Origin: Aureibaculum flavum
GTDB taxonomy: Bacteria; Bacteroidota; Bacteroidia; Flavobacteriales; Flavobacteriaceae
Assembly (NCBI RefSeq): GCF_016406085.1
Contig: NZ_JAEHFJ010000008.1
Span: 62,001 to 126,000, forward strand
DNA length: 64,000 bases
Reading direction: 5' to 3'
Below, in pieces: positions 57,775-64,000 of the stretch (its first letter is position 1; each line of letters starts with the position of its first letter). The notes below the pieces were generated by a model. It was not told the origin of the DNA, ran no database searches, and worked only from the letters and a program-made list of their open reading frames with translations. The translations under genes and the position numbers were made by a program.

Positions 57775-57806
57775 TTTCATAAAATGACCTACGTCATTTT
57801 ATGAAA
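57775..57806 (+). promoter_or_regulatory. Palindromic operator TGAC-CTAC-GTCA with extended arms
   Basis: TTTCATAAAATGAC and GTCATTTTATGAAA are perfectly complementary around CTAC. The core ATGAC-N4-GTCAT has the 5-4-5 layout of CRP/FNR-family sites. A TAnnTTTG-like box (TAATTTTA) starts at 57820, 29.5 bp from its centre, which places the site near -41.5 of the predicted RNA start. Similar cores occur at 58470 and 62449. Confidence 0.6.
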
Positions 57807-57819
57807 TATTAAGAAGACA

Positions 57820-57827
57820 TAATTTTA
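57820..57827 (+). promoter_or_regulatory. Weak -7 box downstream of the palindrome
   Basis: TAATTTTA differs from TAnnTTTG only in the last base. A weak core box is expected for an activator-dependent promoter. The leader to 57969 would be about 137 bases. Confidence 0.4.
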
Positions 57828-57968
57828 TATTAAAATAAAACAACATTAAAAGTCAGATTTTAAAGCGTCTATAATTTTTATTAGAACGGATTTATAGCAT
57901 CAAAGTTTAGTAATTGAAGAGAGTATACAGTAACGTTAAGAATTAAATGAACCCATAAAAAATTTATT

Positions 57969-58439
57969 ATGAATAATTTTAGATACAGACCAAAAGACAA
58001 TTTTATTCAAGAGGCAGATTGGAAACAACTTTTTGTTCTTACAGAACACTGGAAATCTGACCTTTTATTTTTTGCAGATGATATAAAATTTCTACACGAT
58101 TTAATTGATAAATATTTTCTATGGATAGCAAGAAAAGAACATATAGATAAGGTACAAGAGATAGAAATTAACTTGTTAAATGTAGATAGACAAAATTCTT
58201 TATTATTAAAGAAAACGAATAAACATCTAGAACATTTGGAAGCTTTAATTGATGATCCATTTAAATACGATGCTTATGAATTTAGAAATGAACATGAGCA
58301 ACTCGAAGATGATTTATCTGATTTCTTAAAATCTTTTAGAAAAAATAGAAAGGAAGTTTTCAGTATTACAGAATTTATAATTGATAAAGAAGAATTGGTA
58401 AGGCATCTAGACTTTAGTAAAATTAAAAATTATGCATAA
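57969..58439 (+). CDS. Helical protein of unknown function
   Basis: 156 aa, no signal peptide, predicted almost entirely alpha-helical with a possible coiled coil (about 85-130: EINLLNVDRQNSLLLKKTNK). Many acidic residues (EQLEDDLSDFLKS). It begins NNFRYRPKDNFIQEADWKQL. I recognise no family. It is the first gene of the plus-strand cluster that runs to the window end and is preceded by a long leader with a CRP/FNR-like palindrome. Confidence 0.72.
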   Translation: MNNFRYRPKDNFIQEADWKQLFVLTEHWKSDLLFFADDIKFLHDLIDKYFLWIARKEHIDKVQEIEINLLNVDRQNSLLLKKTNKHLEHLEALIDDPFKYDAYEFRNEHEQLEDDLSDFLKSFRKNRKEVFSITEFIIDKEELVRHLDFSKIKNYA

Positions 58440-58469
58440 TGTAGTTGATTTTGCATCAATAGGTAACAT

Positions 58470-58481
58470 TGACCTGTGCCA
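58470..58481 (+). promoter_or_regulatory. Near-palindromic site TGAC-CTGT-GCCA ahead of the exporter operon
   Basis: It differs by one base from TGAC-N4-GTCA. Its centre is 56 bp before the ATG at 58532. A weak box TGATTTTA begins 28.5 bp from the centre at 58504. It is less convincing than the two perfect sites nearby. Confidence 0.4.
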
Positions 58482-58531
58482 TTCTAATTAGAATTCATAG
58501 ATATGATTTTACAATTCAAAATTGATAGGAG

Positions 58532-59752
58532 ATGAAAAAATACAGATGGTTAATAGTTACGATAGTTGTTGTTATTGCGGCAATAGGTTATTTTTATGTA
58601 AGACCTAAAATTGAGTCAAAAAAAGTGGATTATACGTCTACTGTTTTTCAAAAAGGTGATATTGAGTCTGATGTGTCTAGCACAGGAACATTAGAAGCCA
58701 TTAATACTGTAGATGTAGGTACACAAATATCAGGTACTATTTCTAAAATATATGTTGATTACAATGATCGGGTAAAGGCGGGGCAATTATTAGCTACGAT
58801 GGACATGAAAATGCTAAGCACTGCATTAGAATCTGCTCAAGCCAATTTAGCCGTGAGTCAAGCACAATTGAATCAGGTTGAAGATGATTATAATAGAAAT
58901 AAAGTGCTATTTGAAAAAGATGTTATATCTGAAAAGGAATTTAATACTTCAAAGTATAGTTATGAGCAGGCTGTTAGTTACAAAAAAGCATCTCAAGCTG
59001 CACTTACAAATGCACAAGTTAATATGGGATATGCAAAAATATTATCACCTATTAATGGTGTAGTTATTGAAAAAGCGGTAGATGAAGGACAGACTGTTGC
59101 TGCAAGTTTTTCTACACCAACAATGTTCATTATAGCGGAAGACTTGTCTAAAATGCAAATTTTGGCAGATGTTGATGAAAGTGACATTGGTTATGTAAAA
59201 GATAGTATGGACGTACGTTTTACCATACAAACTTATCCAGATAAAAAGTTTTTTGGTAAGGTAAGTCAGGTTCGATTACAGCCTACAGAAATAAATAATG
59301 TAGTTAATTATCAGGTGGTTATTGATATAGAAAATAAGGGAGGGTTATTAATACCTGGTATGACTACAAACATAGAGTTTATTACAGCTAAAGCAAATGA
59401 TGTATGGCTTATAAATAATTCTGCTTTACGCTTTAGACCCACCGAAGCAATGCTAAAAGAAGTTAAACCTATATTAGAAGATAAGGCAAAAACAATTTTA
59501 TCTGATTCTCTACAAGTAGTGTTTAAAAATGCAATTAACAATGAAGAGTTGTTTACGCCAACAAATTTCAAGAAAAATTTACCCGCCAATATTAATGGTT
59601 TCTTTTATAAGAATGAAAATGGAAAACTAGATTTCAAATTTATAGAAACAGGTATTACATCTGGGTTACAGTCTGAAGTTAAAAAATTTCTAGATGGATC
59701 GGAAATAAATGAAAGTATAAAGGCTATTAACGGTATAAAATCTAAAAAATAG
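58532..59752 (+). CDS. Periplasmic adaptor protein (HlyD/MacA-like) of a tripartite exporter
   Basis: 406 aa. An N-terminal transmembrane helix (WLIVTIVVVIAAIGYFYV) anchors it in the inner membrane. The lipoyl half-motif STGTLEAINTVDVGTQISGT (about 50-70), an alpha-hairpin (about 90-165) that would contact an outer-membrane channel, and the second half ILSPINGVVIEKAVDEGQTV follow in the normal order. An ATPase and a permease gene come next, giving a MacA-MacB-type pump. The C-terminus carries an extra segment of about 80 residues. No TolC gene is in this stretch. Substrate unknown. Confidence 0.9.
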   Translation: MKKYRWLIVTIVVVIAAIGYFYVRPKIESKKVDYTSTVFQKGDIESDVSSTGTLEAINTVDVGTQISGTISKIYVDYNDRVKAGQLLATMDMKMLSTALESAQANLAVSQAQLNQVEDDYNRNKVLFEKDVISEKEFNTSKYSYEQAVSYKKASQAALTNAQVNMGYAKILSPINGVVIEKAVDEGQTVAASFSTPTMFIIAEDLSKMQILADVDESDIGYVKDSMDVRFTIQTYPDKKFFGKVSQVRLQPTEINNVVNYQVVIDIENKGGLLIPGMTTNIEFITAKANDVWLINNSALRFRPTEAMLKEVKPILEDKAKTILSDSLQVVFKNAINNEELFTPTNFKKNLPANINGFFYKNENGKLDFKFIETGITSGLQSEVKKFLDGSEINESIKAINGIKSKK

Positions 59753-59758
59753 AAAAAG

Positions 59759-60511
59759 ATGCCTGCAAAAAAAGTCATAGAAACCAAAAAGCTAAACCGT
59801 ATTTTTAAAAATGGTGAAATCGAGGTGCATGCCCTAACGGACATTGATATGATTATTGAAGAAGGTGAATTTGTAGCCATTATGGGGGCATCTGGTTCTG
59901 GAAAGTCAACCTTACTACATATTATTGGCTGTTTAGATAGAGCGACCTCAGGAGAATATGATTTAGACGGAGTGCAAGTAAATAAATTAGGTAAAAATCA
60001 GTTGGCAGATGTTCGAAATCAAAAAATAGGGTTCATTTTTCAAAGTTATAATTTATTAGCTAGAACTACAGCATTGGAAAATGTTGAATTGCCTCTTATT
60101 TATGATAGAACGGGGCAATTTCCGAACTCAAAAGAGTTGGCTCAAAAAGCCCTTGAACAAGTGGGTTTGGCAGATCGTATTTACCATAAAACGAATGAAC
60201 TTTCAGGTGGACAACAACAGCGTGTCGCTATTGCTAGGGCATTGGTTAACAATCCCGCTCTTATTTTGGCGGATGAACCTACGGGTAATTTAGATAGTAA
60301 AGCCAGTATTGATATTGCCGATCTTTTTGTTCAATTGAATAACGAAGGAAAGACGATTGTAATGATTACGCACGAACCAGAAATTGCACAATTTGCGAAA
60401 CGCATGATTTATTTAAGAGATGGGCAAATTATTTCTGATAAAATGATAGAAAAAAGAAGTACCAAAGCATTTGCACTCAAAGAATTAGAAAAACCAGTTG
60501 AAACACCTTAA
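59759..60511 (+). CDS. ABC transporter ATP-binding protein (MacB/LolD type)
   Basis: 250 aa. Walker [11 protein letters not shown]-loop region [12 protein letters not shown], signature [15 protein letters not shown], Walker [14 protein letters not shown] and the H-loop MITHEP are all present. The EKNVELPL-like [12 protein letters not shown] and the position of the Q-loop are typical of the MacB/LolD/FtsE group. It starts 6 bp after the adaptor gene; the permease gene begins about 10 bp after its stop. In E. coli MacB this domain and the permease are one chain; here they are split. Confidence 0.94.
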
Positions 60512-60521
60512 AAGAATACTT

Positions 60522-61736
60522 ATGAAAAGGTTTTTGAAAATATTTAAAGTTGCTTTTATATCTATCTATAAGAATAGGACGCGGAGTTTATTAACAATGC
60601 TAGGTATTATTATTGGAGTTGGAGCTGTTATTATGACCATATCAGCAGGTGAAGGAGCAACATTGGAGGTGGAAAACCAAATATCAGGGTTAGGTACCAA
60701 TCTATTGATGATACAAACCAAGTCAGAACATAAGGCCGGTATAAATGTTAGAATGGGACGTCCCATTAATGAAAAAGATTTTGATATACTTAAAAAAAAT
60801 TCAGTTTGGATGCCCCAATTATCTCCTTTAGTAGCTATTGGAGCACAAGCTATCGGACCAAGCGGTTATAAATCGACTATGGTCTATGGTGTTTCTTACG
60901 ATTATTTTTATATCACTAGTAGAGCATTACAAACCGGTAGTTTTTTTACCGAAGATGATGTGCGAACAGCAAAAAAATATTGTGTTATTGGCCAAACCAT
61001 ACGTGAAGAACTTTTTCCAGGGGAAGACCCAATCGGTCATCAAATACGTATAGATAAAGTGCCTTTTACTGTACTCGGTCTTTTAACTGAAGAAGGTTCA
61101 GGTGGTATGCAGGATATGGATGATATAATATTGGCCCCTTATACAACAATTCAAAATAGGCTGTATGGTCATCAAAATGGTTATACTATGATTATGGCAA
61201 GTGCGTTAAGCGAAGATCATATTGCTGATGCTGAAATGGAAGCTTCTGAACTTTTAAGAGAGTCTCATAAAATAATGGATGGAGATGAAGATGATTTTGA
61301 AATTATGACGCAAATTGAACTGCAGGAAATTACGGGGAATGTTACAGGAATCTTAACCATTCTGTTAGGTGCCGTAGCTAGTATTTCATTAATTGTTGGA
61401 GGTATAGGTATCATGAATATAATGTTGGTTTCGGTTACTGAGCGAACACGTGAAATAGGTACTAGACTAGCAATTGGTGCAAGAGAAAGCGATATTTTAA
61501 CGCAGTTTTTAATAGAAGCTATAGTGCTAAGCTTAGTGGGTGGTATTTTAGGAATAGTATTTGGAATTTTAGGAAATCAAATTATTTATAAAGTGACTGG
61601 GTTTTTTATTCCCACTGTTGGGTATTCCATACTCATTGGGTTTGGATTTTCAGCACTTGTTGGTGTGGCTTTTGGATATTTTCCAGCACGAAAAGCAGCA
61701 AAATTGAATCCGATAGATGCATTACGATATGAATAG
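60522..61736 (+). CDS. ABC transporter permease (MacB/FtsX type)
   Basis: 404 aa from the ATG at 60522; an upstream TTG (60498) overlapping the ATPase gene is possible but unneeded. One N-terminal transmembrane helix (SLLTMLGIIIGVGAVIMTIS) is followed by a large periplasmic MacB-core domain (about 45-275) and three C-terminal helices, with VTERTREIGTRLAIGAREsd-like VTERTREIGTRLAIGARESD between the first and second and PARKAAKLNPIDALRYE at the end, both FtsX-family marks. With its neighbours it should export or extract a substrate from the periplasmic side. Confidence 0.93.
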   Translation: MKRFLKIFKVAFISIYKNRTRSLLTMLGIIIGVGAVIMTISAGEGATLEVENQISGLGTNLLMIQTKSEHKAGINVRMGRPINEKDFDILKKNSVWMPQLSPLVAIGAQAIGPSGYKSTMVYGVSYDYFYITSRALQTGSFFTEDDVRTAKKYCVIGQTIREELFPGEDPIGHQIRIDKVPFTVLGLLTEEGSGGMQDMDDIILAPYTTIQNRLYGHQNGYTMIMASALSEDHIADAEMEASELLRESHKIMDGDEDDFEIMTQIELQEITGNVTGILTILLGAVASISLIVGGIGIMNIMLVSVTERTREIGTRLAIGARESDILTQFLIEAIVLSLVGGILGIVFGILGNQIIYKVTGFFIPTVGYSILIGFGFSALVGVAFGYFPARKAAKLNPIDALRYE

Positions 61737-61775
61737 AAAGTAACATAAAAGTAAGACAAATAAAAATATAAAATT

Positions 61776-61994
61776 ATGAAAGATCTACATACCATACTTA
61801 AGGAAATTACAAAACTAACCTTGAATATTGAAATGAATTATCCTGAGCTTTATCGCTCATTAGATGAAAACCCGATGACATTACCTGTAACGAGTCATCC
61901 TCATATAGATAAAAAGGTAATGCAGGAATATTTAGAAGGCTTAAAGGAGTTGTTGGAGCGGTATGTAGCGGAAGAGAATACTAAAAACAAATGA
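61776..61994 (+). CDS. Small protein of unknown function
   Basis: 72 aa, cytoplasmic, predicted helical: MKDLHTILKEITKLTLNIEM, then a Pro-containing turn (NPMTLPVTSHPHIDKKVMQE) and a Leu/Glu-rich helix (YLEGLKELLERYVAEE). It starts 39 bp after the permease and 25 bp before the ArsC-like gene, so it is part of the operon. Homologues I recall in Flavobacteria sit in similar clusters. Function unknown. Confidence 0.75.
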   Translation: MKDLHTILKEITKLTLNIEMNYPELYRSLDENPMTLPVTSHPHIDKKVMQEYLEGLKELLERYVAEENTKNK

Positions 61995-62019
61995 AAAATC
62001 AACTTTTAAAATCTACATT

Positions 62020-62385
62020 ATGGGAGAAATCGCTACATCAAATAGAGAAATAACTTTGTTTTATAGTTCAAATTCTGAAAGAGCAAAACAGGCTTTAGCG
62101 TATGCAAAAACAGAAGGATTGGCTATTCACGAAGTAGATATATTAAAAACGAAACTTACAGGTCTCCAAATAATAGAACTAGCGGAAAGATTACATATAG
62201 AAGTTGCTGATCTTGTAAATCAAGAACACCCTGCATATACTTCCCATTTGCAACATCATAATTTATCAACGGATGATTGGATAAAAATGATACGGCATAA
62301 TCCAGAGATTATGAAACAACCCATTGCTTTGAAAGGCGATAAAACAGTATTGGTTGAAACACCTACGGATATTTTAAAAATATAA
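62020..62385 (+). CDS. ArsC/Spx-like thioredoxin-fold protein lacking cysteines
   Basis: 121 aa. The overall pattern of the ArsC/Spx/YffB family is visible: a first strand (ITLFYSSNSERAKQALAYAK), the VDILKTKLTGLQIIELAERL helix, and the closing WIKMIRHNPEIMKQPIALKG, which matches the family block L-x-NP-x-L-x-x-RPI. The catalytic Cys is replaced, and the whole protein has no Cys at all, so it cannot act as an arsenate reductase or redox switch of the usual kind. It may be a binding protein derived from the fold, perhaps of Spx-like (RNA polymerase contact) nature; that is speculation. Confidence 0.75.
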   Translation: MGEIATSNREITLFYSSNSERAKQALAYAKTEGLAIHEVDILKTKLTGLQIIELAERLHIEVADLVNQEHPAYTSHLQHHNLSTDDWIKMIRHNPEIMKQPIALKGDKTVLVETPTDILKI

Positions 62386-62448
62386 AAAACAATTCGAATA
62401 GCTTACATCAAGACAACTGAAGTGATGAAATTATTTTATTACTGTAAC

Positions 62449-62460
62449 TGACCATGGTCA
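62449..62460 (+). promoter_or_regulatory. Perfect palindrome TGAC-CATG-GTCA (CRP/FNR-like operator)
   Basis: TGACCATGGTCA is a perfect 12-bp palindrome sharing the TGAC-N4-GTCA core with 57785-57796. A full TAnnTTTG box starts at 62484, 29.5 bp from its centre, so the site would lie near -41.5, the class II activator position. Confidence 0.65.
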
Positions 62461-62483
62461 TTTCAAGAATTCTTCTATTAAAC

Positions 62484-62491
62484 TAGCTTTG
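62484..62491 (+). promoter_or_regulatory. -7 box for the 62.5-kb gene
   Basis: TAGCTTTG matches TAnnTTTG. With the palindrome upstream it predicts an RNA start near 62496 and a leader of about 50 bases to the ATG at 62548. Confidence 0.55.
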
Positions 62492-62547
62492 GTATACCTT
62501 TAAACGAGTAGTGAAATATAAAATTTAATTTTTTAAATAATAAAGTC

Positions 62548-62964
62548 ATGATTAAAGAAAACACAAAAAATTATAGTGATTCAAAAGCTTCAAAAACAAA
62601 AGAGCTCGGTATCTATATGGATCATTCAACGGCAAAATTAATTGATTTACGTTCAGAAAAAAATAGTTATACAATCACCTCTGAATTTACTTTTGAGACA
62701 AAAGAAGAGGCCCTAACTAGAAGTGAAAACCTTATGCATAATAAACGACAACAAATGCAGGAAGAATATTATGAGAAAATAGCTAAAGTCATTTTGAAAT
62801 ATGACGAAGTACTTCTTTTTGGATTAACTAAAGCTAAAACAGAACTCTATAATTTTCTGAATGAAGATTTACGTTTTAAGGATATTAAAATTAGTGTTGA
62901 GCCTGCCGATAAGTTAACGGTAAACCAACAAGATGCTTTTGTGAGAACTTTTTTTGAAAAATAA
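62548..62964 (+). CDS. Conserved flavobacterial protein of unknown function
   Basis: 138 aa, cytoplasmic. A polar N-terminus (about 1-22) precedes ELGIYMDHSTAKLIDLRSE, a beta-hairpin-like start, then helical QMQEEYYEKIAKVILKYDEV, LLFGLTKAKTELYNFL and VEPADKLTVNQQDAFVRTFF. The layout recalls the RNase H/eRF1-domain-like fold seen in some host-attachment or translation-factor relatives, but I cannot assign it. It has its own regulated-looking promoter. Confidence 0.75.
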   Translation: MIKENTKNYSDSKASKTKELGIYMDHSTAKLIDLRSEKNSYTITSEFTFETKEEALTRSENLMHNKRQQMQEEYYEKIAKVILKYDEVLLFGLTKAKTELYNFLNEDLRFKDIKISVEPADKLTVNQQDAFVRTFFEK

Positions 62965-63082: not shown

Positions 63083-63433
63083 ATGATTAAAGACTATTCT
63101 AAACATTATAGTAATCTTACCAAGTTAATGGGGGAATTGGGAGCTGAAATGCCCGAAGTCATGGGTGGTTTTAATACGTTACATGAAGCTAGTATTAAAG
63201 AAGGTGTACTCTCTTCAAAAAATAAAGAGCTTATTGCATTAGGCATTGCTATAACGGTAAGGTGCGATGGTTGTATTGCTTTTCATGTACACGATGCTTT
63301 AAGTGCAGGAGCCAGTTCAGAAGAAATTATGGAAACTATTGGTGTTGCCATTCTAATGGGAGGAGGACCAGCATTAGTGTATGGTTGCCAAGCCATGGAG
63401 GCATTAAGTCAATTTGTGGTCTTAGAAAGATAG
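63083..63433 (+). CDS. Carboxymuconolactone decarboxylase / AhpD-like protein
   Basis: 116 aa, normal for the family. The redox motif is RCDGCIAFHVHDALSAGAS, with C-x2-C and the following His as in AhpD. MGELGAEMPEVMGGF and VAILMGGGPALVYG flank it. AhpD-like proteins use the Cys pair to reduce peroxiredoxins or related partners. Placement among putative stress genes fits an antioxidant role; substrate unproven. Confidence 0.86.
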   Translation: MIKDYSKHYSNLTKLMGELGAEMPEVMGGFNTLHEASIKEGVLSSKNKELIALGIAITVRCDGCIAFHVHDALSAGASSEEIMETIGVAILMGGGPALVYGCQAMEALSQFVVLER

Positions 63434-63513: not shown

Positions 63514-64000
63514 ATGAAAAACCATAAATTACTAATTATCATTTTTGCGTTTATATTTCTTTATGGATGTAAAACGCAACAGGTTCATTCTAAACAAGAA
63601 GTAAGTGGAAATGTTCCTCTTCGAGAATATTCAATTCAGGCAGTTTTATGGCAGCAAAATGCAGCAGAATATAGAGCATTGGCCTATCAAGCATTTAATT
63701 TAGCACAGCTTCAGTTAGACAATATAATTGCGAATAACAAAGATACAAAGAAGCCTCTTGCAATAGTAACAGATATTGATGAAACGTTATTAGATAATAG
63801 TCCATACAGCGGAAAACAGATAGAACTTGATGAAGAATATACGTCACTCAGATGGGCAGAGTGGGTAAAACTAAAAAAAGCAGAAGCGATACCGGGTGCA
63901 TTACAATTTTTTAATTATGCGAAAAGTAGCGGTGTAGAAGTGTTTTATATTTCTAACAGATCTATCAAGCAAAAAAATGAAACCATTGAGAATCTTCAAT
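63514..64000 (+). CDS. Acid phosphatase, lipoprotein e(P4) family (partial)
   Basis: The frame opens at the ATG 63514 and is still open at the window end (about 162 codons visible). A signal with lipobox (FLYGC, about C19) makes it a lipoprotein. Residues about 40-60 (SIQAVLWQQNAAEYRALAYQ) match the e(P4) N-terminal region. The HAD nucleophile motif is VTDIDETLLDNSPYS, and VFYISNRS holds the motif II Ser/Asn. Members are class C nonspecific acid phosphatases of the outer membrane that dephosphorylate nucleotides. The rest of the protein lies beyond the window. Confidence 0.88.
   Translation, partial: MKNHKLLIIIFAFIFLYGCKTQQVHSKQEVSGNVPLREYSIQAVLWQQNAAEYRALAYQAFNLAQLQLDNIIANNKDTKKPLAIVTDIDETLLDNSPYSGKQIELDEEYTSLRWAEWVKLKKAEAIPGALQFFNYAKSSGVEVFYISNRSIKQKNETIENLQ

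Follow-up and report, generated by a model that had tools for sequence, protein, structure and literature searches.

The 64,000-nucleotide stretch of the Aureibaculum flavum genome analyzed here (hereafter, the window; C39:62001-126000 of the 4.75-Mb genome, G000) ends in genes for an exporter, ArsC-like and AhpD-like proteins and several proteins without Pfam matches, among which lie palindromes of the TGAC-N4-GTCA type followed by TAnnTTTG-type promoter boxes. An earlier note on this DNA had interpreted three such palindromes, two perfect and one with a mismatch, as operators of a CRP/FNR-like activator. The two perfect palindromes are indeed the only exact TGAC-N4-GTCA sequences in the window (0.23 expected, with 2 or more in 2 of 100 shuffles), and both passed the check for conservation that the note had proposed, being identical in the aligned sequences of G001 and G002, the two closest relatives of G000. 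The respective features, with the scores of the weight matrix described below and distances in nucleotides (nt), are the following.

57785..57796, + strand: operator 1, TGACCTACGTCA, an exact palindrome; weight-matrix score 26.0
57820..57827, + strand: -7 box TAATTTTA with one mismatch, 23 nt past operator 1; predicted RNA start near 57832
58470..58481, + strand: degenerate site TGACCTGTGCCA without a box at 23 nt; better half-site in G001 and G002, perfect site in G009
62449..62460, + strand: operator 2, TGACCATGGTCA, an exact palindrome; weight-matrix score 29.2
62484..62491, + strand: -7 box TAGCTTTG, exact, 23 nt past operator 2; predicted RNA start near 62496

As the note had stated, the boxes at 57820 and 62484 start 29.5 base pairs (bp) from the centres of operators 1 and 2. 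The sites at 57785, 58470 and 62449 begin 184, 62 and 99 nt ahead of the open reading frame (ORF) starts at 57969, 58532 and 62548, respectively. Operator 1 is part of a more extended inverted repeat, TTTCATAAAATGAC-N4-GTCATTTTATGAAA (57775-57806), which is kept in G001 and has one base changed in G002.

The third site, at 58470, is present with its single mismatch but is probably a decayed operator, given that TAnnTTTG is missing 23 nt past it, that one-mismatch palindromes occur in the window at the chance level (16 vs 12.9 expected, with at least 16 in 23 of 100 shuffles), that it is absent from the 23 places with a weight-matrix score of at least 9 in C39:62001-178000, that its counterpart in G001 and G002 is TGACCTGTATCA, and that in G009 (at 318236) the orthologous exporter gene is preceded, at a distance of 22 nt, by a perfect operator that has an exact box. 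No exact TAnnTTTG was found 23 nt past TGACCTGTATCA in the aligned stretch of G001 and G002. A working operator at 58470 in this genome is not supported by the chance-level count, the alignment of relatives and the weight matrix.

Operator-box spacing and promoter position

The 12-mer TGAC-N4-GTCA occurs at 36 places in the genome vs 26 for a backwards control, and the full pattern with the 23-nt spacing has 10 exact matches, 6 of them within C39:124449-162448. When the spacing was left free between 9 and 38 in 17 genomes of the genus, 53 of the 84 matches fell at 23, with 0-3 at each of the other spacings; once G000-G002, the closest three, were set aside, 45 matches remained, 20 of them at 23. 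The backwards pattern yielded 10 matches vs 84 in the 17 genomes and 0 vs 13 in G000. In this search, akin to the one proposed in the note, a spacing of 23 nt dominates in the genus. An ORF starts within 350 nt downstream of 108 of 112 exact-box sites, and 2 of the 112 lie inside an ORF. The free-spacing and backwards-pattern controls and the position of the sites before ORFs speak against a chance origin of the pattern. For the CC-N2-GG form of the operator, counted by hand at 80 loci with titles among the matches listed, the match lies inside a frame of at least 100 amino acids in 22 of the 27 records with a title from outside Bacteroidota, vs 3 of the 53 with a Bacteroidota title.

CRP/FNR activators of class II bind at -41.5. 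According to RNA-start mapping in a flavobacterium, the TAnnTTTG box of the primary sigma factor lies at -12 to -5 (PMC9723704). As the palindrome centre is 29.5 bp ahead of the first T of this box, the centre of the operator is placed at -41.5, where the earlier note had put it. With 23 as the dominant spacing and a centre at -41.5 according to the box position of another flavobacterium, the predicted geometry is that of class II.

Twenty-two operators are flanked on either side, at 23 nt, by a box with at most one mismatch, and 18 of these are located between ORF starts in both directions. Among 110 exact-box operators, a second box on the other side was found in 19 at spacing 23, compared to 0-9 at other spacings, which suggests shared bidirectional class II operators; thus, one dimer may serve two promoters. 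One of the 22 two-sided operators is at C39:155886-155897 of G000.

RegA, RegB and the sites around them

The gene cluster, which the note had placed at 57.5-64 kb, is part of a larger unit that continues past the window to about C39:162.4 kb; this island of about 43 kb lies mostly outside the window. Its regulatory genes and those on contig C1 are:

C39:156905-157975: RegA, 356 amino acids, consisting of receiver (PF00072), cNMP_binding (PF00027, 74.3 bits) and HTH_Crp_2 (PF13545, 48.6 bits) domains, the latter two over cut-off
C39:157972-160377: kinase with PAS, HisKA and HATPase_c domains, 801 amino acids, overlapping RegA
C1:360790-361845: RegB, a RegA paralogue with the same architecture, overlapping a kinase-like gene
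C1:408593-409279: stand-alone CRP/FNR protein with CRP-family domains, beginning MSKCQQC

A kinase homologue is encoded directly upstream in 13 of 15 RegA loci and in all 10 RegB loci examined; none was found next to RegA in G050 and G072. The receiver residues E8, D9, D52 and K104 are kept in 25 of 25 proteins. With its receiver domain, the phospho-acceptor aspartate D52 and the kinase next door, RegA is a predicted two-component response regulator, and its cNMP_binding and HTH_Crp domains assign it to the CRP/FNR family, with TGA-N6-TCA as the putative site; the output is not the winged helix of the OmpR type, so that RegA does not belong to the OmpR/PhoB group. No match to a solved structure covers both halves of RegA among the best 60 of 173. 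The T, E and R of the recognition helix align to what we take to be positions 180, 181 and 185 of CRP. The correlation between residues and sites described in PMC1274295 suits this helix to a TGA(C/T) half-site.

Receiver-CRP proteins are present in 98 of 197 genomes of the class at an E-value of 1e-40. Within the family, a RegA-like match was detected in 74 of 149 genomes; the RegA type (at least 57% identity) is found in 12, and all others are at most 48% identical. Such fusions are a little-studied type of two-component regulator, and no receiver-CRP regulon of Bacteroidota or TGACCTAGGTCA promoter was recognised in literature titles and abstracts; the string itself occurs in two papers.

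The sites are concentrated around RegA. For TGAY-N4-RTCA with an exact box, 92 of 106 matches around RegA in 15 genomes are at spacing 23 and 14 are spread over the other 29 spacings; after removal of near-copies, 72 of the 92 are left, and the 15 genomes are not all independent because five (G000-G003 and G009) belong to the genus of the window. Around RegB, in 7 genomes, 20 of 24 are at 23 and 4 elsewhere. The two sets differ in the four central bases, which were compared in stretches with one regulator only and without near-copies: G/C accounts for 78 of 224 positions near RegA vs 9 of 80 near RegB (p 4e-5), and a CTA or TAG centre is found in 22 of 56 vs 1 of 20 sites. The CC-N2-GG form at spacing 23 occurs in 6 of 12 RegA+ genomes vs 5 of 137 others of the family (p 2.6e-5; 25 matches, with seven at other spacings left uncounted), and 11 of the 13 such sites in RegA+ genomes are within 33 kb of RegA. 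In 12 distant stretches of the class chosen from RegA-like matches, there are 6 exact-box matches at 23 vs 0-2 at other spacings and, for one-mismatch matches, 15 vs 0-2; 2 of the 12 have no site at spacing 23. Furthermore, 7 of 15 RegA genomes have a site in front of the kinase operon, and 4 of these have an exact box.

We derived a weight matrix from 44 sites in nine genomes. G000, G001, G002, G026, G050 and G066 were omitted, the latter three since their stretches contain both regulators; G003 and G009, which belong to the genus of the window, were included. In C39:62001-178000, 17 places score above 21 (15 operators, two of them read both ways), all within 119785-162448, and the best score in the other 73 kb scanned is 11.8. 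With the threshold set to 12, the island contains 18 places at spacing 23 vs 1-10 at ten other spacings tried; the operator alone carries part of this score.

Pfam matches over cut-off identify ferritin, a Dps-type ferritin, MCRA, TspO, BON, aldehyde dehydrogenase, DnaJ and dodecin proteins in the island, together with the exporter, ArsC-like, AhpD-like and acid-phosphatase proteins of its window part. The earlier note had proposed a stress or low-oxygen cluster with the exporter and AhpD-like genes. The stress character holds: RegA targets look like genes of general, oxidative and protein stress, and the low-oxygen flavour fits the RegB regulon better. On the RegB side, we take the genes to be universal-stress-like, HemN-like, Rrf2-like and nos-like, and C1:367712-375396 (L249), behind a RegB-side operator, is presumably a nitrous-oxide reductase (nos) cluster.

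Proposed activation by RegA and alternative explanations

From linkage, co-occurrence and domain logic, we infer that these sites are bound by RegA. It appears likely that the palindromes are operators of RegA and that RegA is a kinase-phosphorylated class II activator of the stress island. Under this scenario, the PAS histidine kinase would sense a stress signal and phosphorylate RegA, whose dimer would bind TGAYCTAGRTCA-type sites centred at -41.5 and bring RNA polymerase carrying the primary sigma factor to the TAnnTTTG box. The exporter, ArsC-like, AhpD-like, ferritin, Dps, BON, aldehyde dehydrogenase, DnaJ and dodecin genes would be induced jointly and, in several relatives, RegA would also switch on its own kinase operon. 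As to the identity of the activator, the type and position of the operators agree with the CRP/FNR-like protein of the note, and a receiver-CRP regulator with a kinase is likelier than an ordinary CRP or FNR.

Several observations weigh against this interpretation. The whole pattern with at most two mismatches has 2 matches in the window, a number reached by 11 of 100 shuffles; therefore, the window by itself cannot decide, and the case is built mainly on the genome and its relatives. The box of operator 1 carries one mismatch in all three aligned genomes, and an exact box is found at 0 sites of the gene family behind this operator (5 genomes). The exact CC-N2-GG pattern is missing in 6 of the 12 RegA+ genomes and present in 5 of the 137 others; it may be too strict for many genomes. 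Finally, RegA and the stand-alone CRP/FNR protein have the T, E, A and R of the recognition helix in common, so the two proteins could share sites.

Given this common helix and its CRP-family domains, the stand-alone protein could itself be the activator, with the island as a low-oxygen FNR regulon; its gene adjoins genes that we take to be cbb3 oxidase-like, and its MSKCQQC start presumably resembles the cysteines of FNR. This explanation appears unlikely: the sites cluster around RegA instead, and next to the stand-alone gene a single site was found, with an A+T centre and one mismatch in its box. Somewhat less probable still is the possibility that RegA and RegB, perhaps along with the stand-alone protein, bind overlapping sets, the island being a shared target of several CRP-type regulators. 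The half-sites and spacing are common to the RegA and RegB sides, the centre compositions overlap, and the two genes are about 25 kb apart in G026, G050 and G066; the differences in central G/C and in CTA/TAG centres described above argue against such overlap. That the palindromes are repressor sites or functionless chance sequences, as could be surmised from the chance-level one-mismatch palindromes and the non-significant whole pattern in the window, is highly improbable given that the sites are conserved, clustered, in promoter position and at a constant 23 nt from the box; a site at a fixed distance, at -41.5, fits activation.

The proposed RegA system can be compared to three known ones. 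HcpR of delta-proteobacteria, FNR and DNR are CRP/FNR-family activators with TTGACnnnnGTCAA or TTGATnnnnATCAA sites, according to PMC1274295. RegA resembles these in the half-sites and spacing of TGA-N6-TCA, in E and R of the helix and in the -41.5 position, but differs in its receiver domain, the kinase next door, the Bacteroidota TAnnTTTG box and the preferred CTAG centre. Among the 29 Pfam-scanned proteins, which cover part of the island, no hcp or nitrogen-oxide match was found, in a scan that was not aimed at hcp. Like OmpR/PhoB regulators, RegA carries the phosphorylation residues in a receiver domain and is encoded beside a kinase gene, but its output is CRP-type, and the best 25 of 106 NCBIfam models are all far below their cut-offs. 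In the FixLJ-FixK and FNR low-oxygen circuits, a PAS kinase acts on a response regulator and a CRP-type protein binds a TTGA(T/C)-like box. The combination of a PAS kinase and a response regulator is the same here, as are the predicted CRP-type binding to a box of this kind and, on the RegB side, the presumed HemN- and nos-like genes; unlike in FixLJ-FixK, the receiver and CRP parts are fused in RegA rather than divided between two proteins, and the RegA targets are mostly of general stress.

To our knowledge, RpoS and SigB are absent from Bacteroidota, and the general stress response of these bacteria is poorly known. We tentatively suggest that receiver-CRP regulators with PAS kinases could serve much of the phylum as a switch for general stress, in which RegA (general, oxidative and protein stress) and RegB (low oxygen) pairs would separate their promoters largely by the four central bases of the -41.5 operator, often firing two divergent promoters from one palindrome. 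If the central bases set specificity, RegA would prefer TGACCTAGGTCA and RegB TGATATATATCA. With a simple DNA signature, activator-type promoters can be predicted in many genomes of the class, and unannotated stress proteins become findable through these promoters. The kinase-regulator pair is named as the likely switch, with a testable account of how two paralogues might maintain separate regulons.

Genes and protein families behind the sites

The genes in the final part of the window are all on the + strand.

57969..58439, + strand: 156-amino-acid protein of an unannotated helical family, first gene past operator 1; no Pfam match
58532..59752, + strand: HlyD-type membrane-fusion protein of the exporter (PF16576, PF13437)
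59759..60511, + strand: ABC ATPase (PF00005)
60522..61736, + strand: MacB/FtsX-type permease (PF12704, PF02687; MacB model below its cut-off)
61776..61994, + strand: 72-amino-acid protein; no Pfam or NCBIfam match
62020..62385, + strand: ArsC/Spx-like protein of 121 amino acids (PF03960 over cut-off; NCBIfam models below theirs)
62548..62964, + strand: 138-amino-acid protein, first gene past operator 2; no Pfam match, weak pelota match far below cut-off
63083..63433, + strand: AhpD-like (CMD) protein (PF02627)
63514..63999, + strand: acid phosphatase-like lipoprotein (PF03767), cut by the window end; full ORF C39:125514-126335

The family of the 138-amino-acid protein stands behind a site in 4 genomes, and the AhpD-like family is directly behind an operator with an exact box in 4 other genomes. 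Recurrence was counted for boxes with at most one mismatch in the 15 RegA genomes. By this count, a 164-amino-acid protein is behind sites in 11 of 15 genomes, none with an exact box, and so are proteins that we take to be Hsp20-like (11 of 15), YtxH-like (10 of 15) and patatin-like (9 of 15). Candidate targets at a distance include a presumed peroxiredoxin-like gene at C35:289411 and a presumed Hsp20-like gene at C35:288035. In Algoriphagus, outside the genus of the window, a CC-N2-GG operator and box lie 29-36 nt before genes at L091, L109 and L111, which are presumably peroxiredoxin-like as well.

Beside the DnaJ gene of the island, C39:152345-153118 encodes a 257-amino-acid protein with a weak match to sigma-70 region 4, below cut-off. 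The helical family of 57969-58439 has 22 members in the regions examined, including C39:150978-151385 and C1:364232-364669; the two members scanned have no Pfam match, and several members are directly behind RegA- or RegB-type sites.

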